From the NCBI RefSeq assembly GCF_000768685.1, contig NZ_AVPK01000007.1:62001-126000 (forward strand): a stretch of DNA of 64,000 nt. Reading direction: 5' to 3'. Below the pieces are notes generated by a model. The model searched no databases. It saw only the letters and a program-made list of their open reading frames with translations, and had not been told where the DNA came from. Of this stretch, positions 8,775-54,880 are shown piece by piece; position 1 is the stretch's first letter; every line of letters starts with the position of its first letter. The position numbers and the translations under genes were made by a program. This DNA is from Knoellia subterranea KCTC 19937 (GTDB taxonomy: Bacteria > Actinomycetota > Actinomycetes > Actinomycetales > Dermatophilaceae).

Positions 8775-11039
8775 GTGCAGTCCCCGCGCAGCCCATTCGT
8801 GCCCGCCCTCGACGGCCCCGATGCGGAGCCTCGAGCGACCCGCGCCAACCTCGTTTCGGCGGCGGTCGTCGCCGCGGTCGGCTGCGTCTACATGGGGTAT
8901 GCCGTCCGCACCGGACTGCCGCTCGGCGACGCCGCGCGTGCGCTCGCGGCGATCGCGATCACCCAGGTGCTGCCCGGAGCCCTGCTCTGGCGTGCCGTGC
9001 GACCGCGCCGCGGCTGGCTGCTCGAGGACGTCGCCATGGGCTTCGCCCTCGGCATCGCCATCGCGGTGCCGACCCAGGTCGTGGCCGGGCTCCTCGGTCA
9101 GCGGTGGCCGGCCTTCGTGATCCCGCTCGCGGTGGCTGCCGTGTTGGTGGCTGTGCCGCGCACGCGTCGGCGGATCATGGCGGCGCAGTGGTCCCCGATG
9201 GCGTGGTGGCTCGCGCCTCTCGTGTCGCTCATCTCATTCTGGGCCCTGCGCCAGCTCGTCGCCTACTTCCGGACGAACCAGATCACGTGGACCGGGCTCG
9301 GCCGTCCGCACATCGACGCCTATCTCCACCAGGCGCTGGCGTCCCAGCTCCTCCACCGGGGGCCGACGAGCTGGCCCACGGTGGCCGGTGAGGACCTCGG
9401 CTACCACTGGTTCACCCACGCGTGGCTCGCCCATGTCACCGCGACGTCGGGTGCGGGTCTGGACCTCGTCCTCCTGCGGGTCATGCCCGCCCTCATGCCC
9501 CTCACCGTCGTCGTGTGCGTCGCGGTCGCCGCCCTGCGCCTCTCGCGGAGCTCGAAGGTGGCCCTGCTCGCGAGCGGTCTGGCGATGGTCGCGTCCGGCG
9601 GCAACCCGTTCGGCTACGCGAGCTTCGGACTGCCCCTCAACCCCGACTCGCCGACCCTCGCGCTCGGTGTGCCCACGCTGCTCGCACTGGTGGTCCTGCT
9701 CGCGCAACGGTGGAACGGGGAACTGTCGCGGACGGCATACGTCCTCGTTCCGTGGCTCTCGGTCATCGCGGCCGGCACCAAGGGTGCGACGTCGCCCCTC
9801 GTGGTCGCCGGTCTCGGACTCGCCGCGGTGGCCATGCTCCTGTGGAACCGCAGGCTGTTCGGCAAGGTTGTCGTCGACACGCTCGTCGTCGGCGGCGGCC
9901 TGATCTTCGCGCTCATCGTCGTCTTCCACGGCTCGAGCGCCGGGCTCGCCCTGGGCATCACGGACTCGTCGAAGCAGACCTACGTCCACGTGCTGCTCGG
10001 GTCGTTGCCGGGCCGTGAGCTCGTGCTCGCCGCAGCGGCCCTCGCCGTGATCAGCGGCCTGACTCGAGCCGCCCTGTCCTTCGCCCCGATGTTCGGTCGC
10101 GAGTCGCGACGGCAGCCACTCTCGTGGCTGCTCGCGGGTGGCTCCATCGCCGGAGCCGCCGCGGTCGGACTGTTCTCCCACCCGGGACAGAGCCAGTACT
10201 ACTTCCTCCTCACCGCCATCCCGCTCGCCGCGATCGGTTCGGCGATGGGAGCCCGCTCGATCGTGCACGCCCTCGGCCCGGACGCGGTCAGGCGACTGCT
10301 GCCGCTCGCCGTGGTGGCCGGTGGGCTCATCCACTTGGCACCGACCCGCCTCGTCGGTGAGCTCGGCGAGGGGACGTTCCAGACGTTCTGGCGGGCTCTC
10401 GCGGTTGCTGCCGTGCTCGTGGTCGCGACGGCGGCGGCTGGCTGGTTCCTTGGCGACCCAGGTCGTCGCCTCATGGCCAGTCTGGCGACCACCGCCACCG
10501 CGGCGCTCGCGGTGGGAGGTTTCGCGGCGATCAACACGGTGCGGGCACCGCTCTTCGCCGAGGTCAAACGGCCCGCCTCCCTCACGGAACGCCTGGCCAT
10601 CTCCCAGGACCAGCTCGACGCGGCCCGCTGGATCCGGGACCACTCGGATCCCGACGACCTTGTCATGACCAACCGCCACTGCACCGTGCCGCGCAAGCCA
10701 GTCGACGGCTGCGACAGCCGCCGCTGGGTCGTCACCGCGTTCAGCGAGCGCCAGTCGCTCGTCGAGGGTTGGACCGCGACACCGGAGGCGACGAAGCGTG
10801 CGCCACACGGGCGTGACTCGGTGACGGTGAACTACTGGAAGCCCGACATCCTCGAACTCAACGACGGGTTCATCGCGAACCCGACGGCAGAGGCGCAGCG
10901 GCGACTGTGGGACCTCGGCGTGCGCTGGGTCTATGTCGACAACCTGCAAGCACACGCCGACGACCTGGCCCCGTTCGCCGAGCGGGGCTTCGACTCCCCG
11001 GACGCGTCGGCCTGGAAGCTGCTCGAGCCGGGCCGCTGA
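8775..11039 (+). CDS. Large multi-pass membrane protein, GT-C glycosyltransferase-like
   Basis: This 754-residue protein has roughly 12-14 hydrophobic helices up to about residue 600 and a soluble C-terminal domain. The first large extracytoplasmic loop contains GRPHIDAYLHQALASQLL, resembling the catalytic acidic loop of GT-C enzymes that use polyprenyl-phosphate sugars. The C-terminal part (YWKPDILELN, WDLGVRWVYVDN) resembles the outer domain of related actinobacterial membrane proteins. It probably adds a sugar to a cell-wall polymer outside the membrane. GTG 8775 follows CAGGAG. The 13-base word occurs twice inside it (8897, 9728), encoding YAVR and RTAY. Its stop codon lies in the loop of a perfect 14-bp hairpin. 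Confidence 0.75.
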   Translation: MQSPRSPFVPALDGPDAEPRATRANLVSAAVVAAVGCVYMGYAVRTGLPLGDAARALAAIAITQVLPGALLWRAVRPRRGWLLEDVAMGFALGIAIAVPTQVVAGLLGQRWPAFVIPLAVAAVLVAVPRTRRRIMAAQWSPMAWWLAPLVSLISFWALRQLVAYFRTNQITWTGLGRPHIDAYLHQALASQLLHRGPTSWPTVAGEDLGYHWFTHAWLAHVTATSGAGLDLVLLRVMPALMPLTVVVCVAVAALRLSRSSKVALLASGLAMVASGGNPFGYASFGLPLNPDSPTLALGVPTLLALVVLLAQRWNGELSRTAYVLVPWLSVIAAGTKGATSPLVVAGLGLAAVAMLLWNRRLFGKVVVDTLVVGGGLIFALIVVFHGSSAGLALGITDSSKQTYVHVLLGSLPGRELVLAAAALAVISGLTRAALSFAPMFGRESRRQPLSWLLAGGSIAGAAAVGLFSHPGQSQYYFLLTAIPLAAIGSAMGARSIVHALGPDAVRRLLPLAVVAGGLIHLAPTRLVGELGEGTFQTFWRALAVAAVLVVATAAAGWFLGDPGRRLMASLATTATAALAVGGFAAINTVRAPLFAEVKRPASLTERLAISQDQLDAARWIRDHSDPDDLVMTNRHCTVPRKPVDGCDSRRWVVTAFSERQSLVEGWTATPEATKRAPHGRDSVTVNYWKPDILELNDGFIANPTAEAQRRLWDLGVRWVYVDNLQAHADDLAPFAERGFDSPDASAWKLLEPGR
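8897..8909 (+). repeat. 13-base iterated word, copy 1
   Basis: Exact GTATGCCGTCCGC inside the membrane-protein gene, where it encodes Tyr-Ala-Val-Arg. Confidence 0.9.
9728..9740 (-). repeat. 13-base iterated word, copy 2
   Basis: Exact reverse-complement copy inside the same membrane-protein gene, where the plus strand reads Arg-Thr-Ala-Tyr. Confidence 0.9.
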
Positions 11040-11054
11040 GGGCCCGGCTCGAGC
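11021..11054. terminator. Perfect 14-bp hairpin between convergent genes
   Basis: GCTCGAGCCGGGCC (11021-11034) and GGCCCGGCTCGAGC (11041-11054) are perfect complements around a 6-base loop, GCTGAG, which holds the TGA stop of the upstream gene. It sits 29 bases past the end of scoB on the other strand, so it can serve as a shared bidirectional terminator. No T-run follows, as is usual in this genome type. Confidence 0.75.
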
Positions 11055-11083
11055 GGGCCGTCACGGGCCCGGGTTGGTGGTCG

Positions 11084-53363: not shown

Positions 53364-54797
53364 ATGTCCTTTGACTACAAGGTTGCCGACCTGGGCCTCG
53401 CCGAGGCCGGCCGTCACCAGATCCGCCTGGCCGAGCACGAGATGCCCGGCCTCATGTCGCTGCGCGAAGAGTTCGGTGCATCGCGGCCGCTCAAGGGCGC
53501 TCGCATCGCCGGCTCGCTGCACATGACCGTGCAGACCGCCGTCCTCATCGAGACGCTGACCGCGCTGGGCGCCGAGGTCCGTTGGGCCTCCTGCAACATC
53601 TACTCGACGCAGGACGAGGCCGCTGCGGCCGTCGTCGTCGGCCCGAACGGCACCGTCGACAACCCGCAGGGTGTCCCGGTCTTCGCCTGGAAGGGCGAGA
53701 CGCTCGAGGAGTACTGGGACTGCACCGAGCAGATCCTCACGTGGCCCGGCGAGGGCGCGAACATGATCCTCGACGACGGTGGCGACGCCACGATGCTCGT
53801 CCACAAGGGTCGCGAGTGGGAGGCCGCCGGTCAGGTGCCGCCCACCACCGATGAGGACTCCGAGGAGTTCGGCATCTTCAAGGCGCTCGTCCGCCGCACC
53901 CTCGAGCAGGACGGCCAGAAGTGGACCAAGGTCTCCGAGGAGATCAAGGGTGTCACCGAGGAGACCACGACCGGCGTGCACCGGCTCTATGAATTGGCAC
54001 GTGCTGGCCTCCTCTTGTTCCCGGCGATCAACGTCAACGACTCGGTCACCAAGTCCAAGTTCGACAACAAGTACGGCTGCCGCCACTCCGTCATCGACGG
54101 CCTCAACCGCGCGACCGACGTCCTCATCGCGGGCAAGCTCGCCGTCGTTGCCGGCTACGGCGACGTGGGCAAGGGCTGCGCCCAGGCGCTCGCCGCGCAG
54201 GGTGCGCGCGTCGTCGTCACCGAGGTCGACCCCATCTGCGCGCTCCAGGCCGCGATGGAGGGCTTCCAGGTCGCTCGCCTCGAGTCGGTTGTCGAGAACG
54301 CCGACATCTTCATCACGACGACCGGCAACTTCAACATCATCACCGCCGAGCACATGCAGGCGATGAAGAACAAGGCGATCGTCGCCAACATCGGCCACTT
54401 CGACAACGAGATCGACATGGCCGGACTGGCCAAGGTCGACGGCATCACGAAGACCGAGATCAAGCCGCAGGTCCACGAGTGGACGTTCTCGAGCGGCGGC
54501 TCCATCATCGTCCTGTCCGAGGGTCGCCTCTTCAACCTCGGCAACGCGACGGGTCACCCGTCCTTCGTCATGAGCAACTCCTTCGCGAACCAGACGATCG
54601 CGCAGATCGAGCTCTTCACGAAGACCGGTGACTACGAGAAGCAGGTCTACGTCCTGCCCAAGCACCTCGACGAGAAGGTTGCGCGCCTCCACCTCGACGC
54701 CCTGGGTGTCGAGCTCACCGAGCTCTCCAAGGAGCAGGCCGAGTACATCGGCGTCGACGTTGCTGGTCCGTACAAGCCGGACCACTACCGCTACTGA
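53364..54797 (+). CDS. ahcY: Adenosylhomocysteinase
   Basis: This 477-residue enzyme hydrolyses S-adenosylhomocysteine to adenosine and homocysteine, sustaining SAM-dependent methylation. It has the long bacterial form with the NAD-binding [13 protein letters not shown], the catalytic-site [13 protein letters not shown], and the conserved C-terminal KPDHYRY that reaches into the neighbouring subunit. ATG 53364 has GGAAGAG upstream. It matches Rv3248c (sahH), which in mycobacteria also lies upstream of mtrAB-lpqB. The 13-base-word hairpin follows. Confidence 0.95.
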
Positions 54798-54843
54798 GAG
54801 TTCGCCTCTCGAGTCGCCTTTCGCGTTGTCTCACAACGCATCC

Positions 54844-54880
54844 GGTATGCCGTCCGCTCACCAAGAGCGGGCGGCATACC
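54844..54880 (+). terminator. ahcY terminator built from the 13-base word
   Basis: GGTATGCCGTCCGCTC (54844-54859) and GAGCGGGCGGCATACC (54865-54880) form a 16-bp stem with one G-U wobble and a 5-base ACCAA loop. It starts 46 bases after the ahcY stop. Both arms are copies of the iterated word (the second with one change). Confidence 0.8.
54845..54857 (+). repeat. 13-base iterated word, copy 12 (terminator arm)
   Basis: Exact GTATGCCGTCCGC as the 5' arm of the ahcY terminator, with a one-mismatch inverted copy at 54867-54879 as the 3' arm. Confidence 0.9.

Follow-up and report, generated by a model that had tools for sequence, protein, structure and literature searches.

A frequent octamer with one-base dialects in Knoellia subterranea and related genera: a candidate self-recognition tag for DNA uptake

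Introduction

To our knowledge, words that guide DNA uptake are known from two gram-negative families only, the Neisseriaceae, with their DNA uptake sequences (DUS), and the Pasteurellaceae, with their uptake signal sequences (USS). A frequent word of the actinobacterium Knoellia subterranea KCTC 19937 (Dermatophilaceae) is described here and compared with these systems. It was recognized in a stretch of 64,000 nucleotides (contig NZ_AVPK01000007.1, G000:C32:62001-126000), referred to below as the window, which belongs to a genome of 3,566,056 bases in 33 contigs, and it consists of an octamer, GTATGCCG, with a 13-base extended form, GTATGCCGTCCGC. The copy number of the DUS is of the same order as that found here, and the density of the USS is similar to that of the octamer.

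The DUS of the Neisseriaceae is over-represented, occurs in and between genes, forms inverted pairs at terminators and has dialects distributed by phylogeny, and its receptor, ComP, is a minor pilin of the type IV pilus (PMC3630211). The Knoellia word resembles it in being an over-represented, non-palindromic word found on both strands, in coding DNA and more densely in intergenic DNA, whose dialects follow phylogeny. It differs in belonging to another phylum with another cell wall, and a PilT was above the family cut-off in 0/9 genomes of the Knoellia genus and in 11/58 of the relatives searched. The Neisseria word in its 12-mer form and the 13-mer have ATGCCGTC in common; the essential DUS core, however, is CTG (PMC3630211), and this likeness is taken as coincidence. 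The USS of the Pasteurellaceae resembles the Knoellia word in its short core with a weaker preferred flank, and differs in word and phylum. Its receptor has recently been predicted to be a minor pilin (PMC12616744).

Two other systems are close in part. The highly iterated palindrome HIP1 of cyanobacteria is a high-frequency octamer that is replaced in some genomes by alternate HIPs, where the matching methyltransferase is present (PMC4390886); it is a palindrome tied to methyltransferases, whereas GTATGCCG is non-palindromic. Micrococcus luteus, an actinobacterium with comEA/comEC and two tad clusters, requires these clusters and com genes for transformation; the paper describing this system (PMC4322843) nowhere uses the term 'uptake sequence'.

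The octamer and its 13-base extension

A preliminary description of the window had reported twelve exact 13-mers in a 6:6 orientation, and a window search recovered every one of them (12/12, six per strand), together with a thirteenth site at 54867-54879 that carries one mismatch. Shuffled windows gave on average 0.20 matches with at most one mismatch, and 13 were reached in 0/100 shuffles. The description of the 13-mer as a genome-wide word, to be dropped if the whole-genome count lay near background, was borne out by 362 exact copies (176 and 186 by strand) against 0 of the reversed word.

What could not be retained was the 13-mer as the repeat unit. The true unit was found to be the octamer GTATGCCG (reverse complement CGGCATAC), present 2,444 times in the genome against 54 copies of its reversed form, with 1,233 and 1,211 copies on the two strands and a density of about 0.7 per kb. 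In a sample of 464 kb, 281 octamers were observed, for which an order-2 Markov model expects 9.7, and the reversed word occurred 6 times. The extension TCCGC was carried by 52 of these 281 copies; past it, weak preferences remain, and the flanks of the octamers are nearly flat, with little common sequence. The halo of shorter relatives that had been described does exist (the window holds 41 octamers and 17 decamers GTATGCCGTC), at positions 1-5 bases off those first given.

Coding, codon and pair counts were obtained with a simple gene caller on 573 kb, or 16% of the genome. In this sample, 33 of the 13-mers were intergenic, 29 coding and 2 straddling, while the octamers numbered 82, 268 and 6, respectively, with densities of 1.13 per kb in intergenic and 0.54 per kb in coding DNA. 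The intergenic bias of the 13-mer over all octamers was pronounced (odds ratio 5.6, p 2e-8). The unit is thus the octamer, which in Knoellia is preferentially extended to the 13-mer, a form that leans towards intergenic DNA.

Selection or drive at the DNA level

The codon usage of the copies within genes revealed that the word is maintained against codon preference. In tyrosine-alanine pairs read in the frame of the word (xxG TAy GCC Gxx), tyrosine was encoded by TAT in 112/137 cases (82%), compared with 390/2,587 (15%) where GCC did not follow and 47/167 where GCC followed without the full context. In alanine-tyrosine pairs, the frame of the opposite strand, GCA was used in 90/141 cases after xCG and in 7/225 otherwise. 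The same override was found in other Knoellia (68/77 for TAT; 72/96 for GCA) and in the other genera that bear GTATGCCG (143/171; 91/145). In sampled stretches, the effect was not significant in the genera with the variant GGATGCCG (2/13; 1/9) or the variant GTACGCCG (1/37; 1/52), in word-free members of the family (2/41; 0/20) or in other families (2/44; 0/55).

Conservation was examined in two nine-sequence Knoellia sets, covering one region each, by pairwise and hence non-independent comparisons, in which the octamer was conserved exactly in 964/1,305 cases, while control octamers of equal composition were so in 34,166/116,959. Where the amino acid was conserved, TAT was kept in 350/394 cases within the word and 279/838 elsewhere, and GCA in 207/294 and 834/3,532, respectively. 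Insertions and deletions at orthologous sites were no commoner than in controls (65/1,305 against 6,301/116,959, 5% each). Repetitive extragenic palindromes (REP) and mobile repeats have shared flanks and are gained by insertion, neither of which was seen for this word; the copies do not belong to one paralogous or mobile family, confinement to which would have refuted the preliminary description. Its claim that selection acts on the DNA rather than on the protein was likewise strongly upheld by the codon-aware test. These results altogether indicated that selection or drive acts on the word as DNA, against codon preference.

Distribution across genomes

The 13-mer was found in all 8 genus mates, with 121-408 copies each, and was absent from 22 genomes of other families. 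When genomes with at least 400 copies were taken as octamer-bearing, 106/186 genomes of the family qualified (hand count of a whole-genome table), and two incomplete genomes, G157 (394) and G205 (341), fell below this line yet were enriched over the reversed word. Among the 297 genomes of the order that were searched, 0 of the 273 outside the family reached 400 copies, the highest count being 177, with 135 of the reversed word in the same genome. Within the order, the octamer is therefore confined to one family. At least one of three words, the octamer and the dialects described below, reached its line in 121/186 family genomes. One genome (G141, genus g68) was at background for the word, which its 30 genus mates, G157 with its 394 copies among them, all bear.

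A similar boundary emerged from 79 named loci encoding the competence protein ComEC. The nearest 21 (L070-L090), from Knoellia, Janibacter, Phycicoccus, Pedococcus, Humibacillus, Leekyejoonella and four metagenome-assembled genomes, carry 5-28 octamers, and the other 58 (L091-L148) carry 0-1. The nearest named ComEC relatives were those of Janibacter sp. HTCC2649 (83% identity) and six Knoellia records (73-80%), which marks the window as Knoellia-like, with K. koreensis more distant (57%). In the open-licence PMC literature searched, no report of a word of this kind in actinobacteria was found, as judged by listings.

In one genome, five 13-mers of the same orientation were observed at exactly 62-base spacing (G027:C42:120456-120716); they form a tandem array, whereas copies in other places are scattered.

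One-base dialects

In other lineages of the family, one-base variants of the octamer take its place or stand beside it. In stretches of octamer-free genomes, GGATGCCG occurred 67 times per 60 kb of G033 (expected 5.2) and 28 times per 40 kb of G024 (3.2), and GTACGCCG occurred 32 times per 60 kb of G030 (5.2) and 34 times per 40 kb of G122 (4.9); both GGATGCCG in G033 and GTACGCCG in G122 were over-represented in intergenic DNA too. Whole-genome counts of GGATGCCG, whose background is high, reached at least 2,000 in 7/186 genomes, exceeding the reversed word 9- to 18-fold (the next-highest count is 1,336), and those of GTACGCCG reached at least 1,000 in 11/186, from 3.6 times the reversed word (G174) upwards (next genome 870). 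At least four genomes were mixed: G084 and G085 hold 1,217 and 1,189 copies of GTATGCCG with 2,195 and 2,099 of GGATGCCG, and G171 and G174 hold 625 and 836 of GTATGCCG with 865 and 1,011 of GTACGCCG. G118 has 1,463 copies of GTACGCCG, and its two genus mates have 3,681 and 1,062 of GTATGCCG. In 60 kb of G023 (L051-L053), 22/23 octamers carried the nearly fixed 3' extension CTG[GA]G, giving the form GTATGCCGCTG[GA]G, with 11 of the 23 in called genes and 12 outside.

A ComEC tree was built from 68 rows (65 from the family, 3 from outside); on it, the word states required 15 changes compared with 32.7 when shuffled, with two changes for GGATGCCG, four for GTACGCCG and nine for the no-word state. 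This clustering indicates that the dialects follow descent, yet switch and vanish repeatedly, on a tree of one gene built by a quick method, with 18 open forks and an unsettled root, the outgroup falling within the family; in its labels, G061 (785 copies of GTACGCCG) was scored as GTAC and G026 (752) as no-word. The dialects of G031 and G118 were evident from whole-genome counts but had escaped k-mer scans of 40-60 kb, so a word missing from other scanned stretches is not a firm result.

A fourth dialect, CGATGCGG in G117 (47 per 40 kb), was considered and rejected, since all 47 copies lay in called genes, probably a codon effect. It was also observed that GTACGCCG falls below its reversed form in G137, G138, G139, G132 and G094 (33 against 160 in G139), a shortfall of the kind that conversion of near-copies to GTATGCCG would leave.

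Orientation, spacing and hairpins

The word had been described as non-polar, which agrees with the counts on the two strands of the window and of the genome given above and with 173 octamers on the G-rich strand against 183 on the other, although GC skew is small and this test is not sharp. Relative to gene strand, the orientations numbered 145 and 123. Octamer counts per 5 kb were under-dispersed (variance/mean 0.73, p 0.016). All 12/12 close pairs, at most 60 bp apart, were inverted, with 6 in each arrangement, for which the chance is 0.0002.

Two copies had been proposed to form hairpin arms after genes. Each of the five intergenic copies of the window was folded on one selected strand and compared with its own shuffles. 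The proposal stood for the copy at 54845, where a fold of -37.4 kcal/mol (z -7.9) was obtained for the segment 54843-54881, and no second hairpin was found, the other four folds being indistinguishable from shuffles (z +1.1, -0.7, 0.0 and -1.2). An inverted pair at 2460-2510 of locus L010 folds at -38.6 kcal/mol (z -7.5). Some inverted pairs are thus predicted to form long intergenic hairpins, putative terminators, while the octamer is not denser between convergent genes (0.98 against 1.41-1.42 per kb).

The number of octamers in 5-kb bins increased with GC content (Spearman 0.29, p 0.002), from 0 below 62% (two bins) and 1.17 at 62-66% (six bins) to 2.5 at 66-68%, 3.3-3.6 at 68-72% and 3.0 above. 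The three longest octamer gaps correspond, in proteins read by eye, to a polysaccharide-type cluster, a transposase and an integrase/toxin-antitoxin remnant. The octamer is accordingly scarce in recently acquired DNA, with foreignness judged from GC content and protein reading.

Copies in the window and neighbouring genes

The preliminary description had placed eight 13-mers inside genes and four between them; the recount gave five wholly intragenic, two over gene starts and five intergenic. The called gene 8799-11039 contains two of them (8897-8909, plus strand, and 9728-9740, minus), and single copies lie inside the genes 14891-17473 (16954-16966, plus), 35220-36323 of the F420_ligase family (35911-35923, minus) and the small gene 52903-53184 (53145-53157, plus). 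The copy at 19806-19818 (minus) lies over the start of gene 19391-19816 of the Zn_protease family, and that at 51055-51067 (minus) over the start of gene 50517-51065 of the tRNA_edit family. The intergenic copies are found at 14813-14825 (plus; between genes 12806-14605 and 14891-17473), 18302-18314 (minus; 17486-18280 and 18327-19394), 25656-25668 (minus; 24989-25639 and 25744-26964) and 35190-35202 (plus; 34578-35141 and 35220-36323), as well as at 54845-54857 (plus), the left arm of the predicted hairpin 3' of the S-adenosylhomocysteine hydrolase gene 53364-54797. The right arm of this hairpin is the one-mismatch 13-mer at 54867-54879 (minus), which includes the octamer 54872-54879.

Exact octamers were also found on the plus strand at 3188-3195, 18386-18393, 20233-20240, 22137-22144, 22766-22773, 26454-26461, 29148-29155, 32511-32518, 38049-38056, 41889-41896, 45323-45330, 48182-48189, 50889-50896, 57192-57199, 58652-58659 and 60008-60015, and on the minus strand at 4433-4440, 12086-12093, 15604-15611, 23965-23972, 30029-30036, 32310-32317, 40218-40225, 46934-46941, 58250-58257 and 61489-61496. 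Those at 62860-62867 (plus) and 62917-62924 (minus) form an inverted pair.

Two observations concern neighbouring genes. The gene 14891-17473 is a single frame of 860 residues, with no Pfam family, that corresponds to two separate pieces in 6/8 genus mates; these pieces are about 60-70 bases apart in two of the genomes and about 1.1 kb apart in the other four. A tRNA-Ala (GGC) predicted by ARAGORN on the minus strand at 41392-41476 lies within the called gene 40861-42336, and one of these calls is probably wrong.

Competence machinery

The genome encodes ComEA (HHH_3, SLBB) and ComEC (Competence domain) in adjacent genes, both above Pfam cut-offs. In a tad cluster, of the kind that makes Flp pili, the T2SSE ATPase and a DUF4244 Flp-like pilin passed the cut-offs, a TadE-like protein was below its cut-off, and CpaE, TadB, TadC and TadF-like proteins were recognized by eye. 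The genome has another tad locus, which includes a prepilin peptidase and which only scattered relatives share. Two sortase-like genes, on one of which Pfam was run, lie in the tad cluster between the TadC and pilin genes (L045 12187-13635).

The C-terminal halves of ComEA, compared by eye in 34 loci, looked alike in bearers and word-free genomes, with the exception of the word-free G022, which has only the helix-hairpin-helix part. The ComEC match of G141 was weak (3.0e-82, compared with mostly 1e-150 or better), which probably reflects a gene that is broken or cut off where a contig ends, and that of G138 was 1.5e-61 in two pieces, so G141 does not stand alone in this. Machinery of this kind is compatible with uptake without being evidence for it.

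Function of the word and alternative explanations

As most of the genomic features tested agree with those of DUS and USS, uptake specificity is taken as the likeliest function, and by analogy with these systems the word may be a self-recognition tag for DNA uptake, a reading to which we assign a probability of roughly 0.6. The likeness to HIP1 or to uptake sequences noted in the preliminary description is supported as regards a genome-wide, non-polar, DNA-level word, with its function a candidate. In the mechanism proposed, the competence machine would have a DNA receptor at the cell surface that prefers octamer-bearing DNA, possibly through a tad/Flp pilus with ComEA and ComEC, a set of the kind that M. 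luteus requires. Octamer-bearing fragments would enter the cell and recombine more frequently than others. Recombination would in this way spread the point mutations by which copies arise or are restored, a form of molecular drive, and a changed receptor would shift the dialect.

Several observations weigh against uptake specificity. A ComEC match was found in 181/186 family genomes, bearers and word-free alike, and a tad-type ATPase match, with paralogues pooled, in 184/186, so that neither predicts the word; as markers both were discarded, the close matches of L046 type to the ATPase being sporadic and the weaker ones, taken as L045 type, nearly universal. The five ComEC-negative genomes (G070, G149, G156, G193 and G205) are word-enriched, which we ascribe to their broken assemblies (30-760 contigs). 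No receptor candidate emerged from 18 tad stretches (11 word-bearing, 6 word-free and 1 from another family), all of which contained the tad ATPase and TadC; in the word-rich Knoellia G003 the pilin genes are mere remnants within its 14-kb stretch, and the tad cluster of K. subterranea itself lies in a 5.3-kb octamer-free stretch (L045 8518-13846). Another long octamer-free gap (L022) spans what appears, by eye, to be a core metabolic gene. Neighbours of the octamer within one letter were not raised overall (377 against 401 expected), which gives no sign of a pool of copies in decay; the number of pairs at most 60 bp apart, 12 against 13.0 by chance, shows no excess; and the codon override was weaker in G023 (5/11; 3/7). 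The literature searched yielded no data on uptake or transformation in these genera.

The main rival, which we consider unlikely, is a HIP1-like word made and kept by a DNA methyltransferase and linked repair, following the model for cyanobacterial HIP1, so that a change of enzyme would change the word. One-base dialects could suit a changed methyltransferase, in the manner of the alternate HIPs, and the failure of ComEC and tad presence to track the word fits such a mechanism. It is disfavoured by the non-palindromic form of GTATGCCG, since HIPs are palindromic, and by the all-inverted close pairs, the intergenic hairpins formed by some of them and the scarcity in low-GC DNA, which are features reported or expected for DUS. 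Less probable still is a chromosome-organising or nucleoid-protein site read in the cell throughout the genome: rather even spacing, strong conservation and a density of about 0.7 per kb speak for it, but the known organising sites KOPS, matS and parS are polar, regional or rare, the present word is non-polar, and hairpin pairs and dialect turnover would be left unexplained.

A recombination hotspot like Chi, read by RecBCD or AdnAB, seems very improbable. The Chi of Escherichia coli likewise has eight letters, is enriched in core DNA and is spelled in a lineage-specific manner, but Chi, like KOPS, is oriented with replication, whereas the octamer showed no orientation by G-rich strand, within the small skew mentioned, or by gene strand. 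An ordinary cause can practically be dismissed. Codon bias is contradicted by a word that overrides codon preference instead of following it, and a mobile repeat family by the little-shared flanks and by indels equally frequent at words and controls. The first ten bases of the 13-mer presumably also occur in an old Illumina adapter, an overlap that would favour carry-over from sequencing, but the adapter continuation GTATGCCGTCTT had 0 occurrences in the 573-kb sample, for which carry-over was rejected, and the copies stand at conserved orthologous places across independent assemblies.

Implications

The wider proposal drawn from uptake specificity is that this family takes up DNA in a sequence-specific manner, possibly by way of a tad-type pilus, that its word evolved independently and that the one-base dialects restrict gene flow from genus to genus; it would be the first gram-positive system of the DUS/USS type, with a new kind of receptor, and we hold the odds of this to be about even. 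Knowledge from two families has left open whether uptake words are an accident of those lineages or a general outcome of competence. If the proposal is true, a third independent case, gram-positive and with three dialects across 121/186 genomes, would be available, and the drive model, the match between receptor and word and the role of dialects as gene-flow barriers would become directly testable, to which the mixed genomes and the word-free genomes beside bearers of the same genus would add. In practice, the addition of GTATGCCGTCCGC to DNA might aid the transformation of environmental genera, among them Knoellia, Phycicoccus and Humibacillus.

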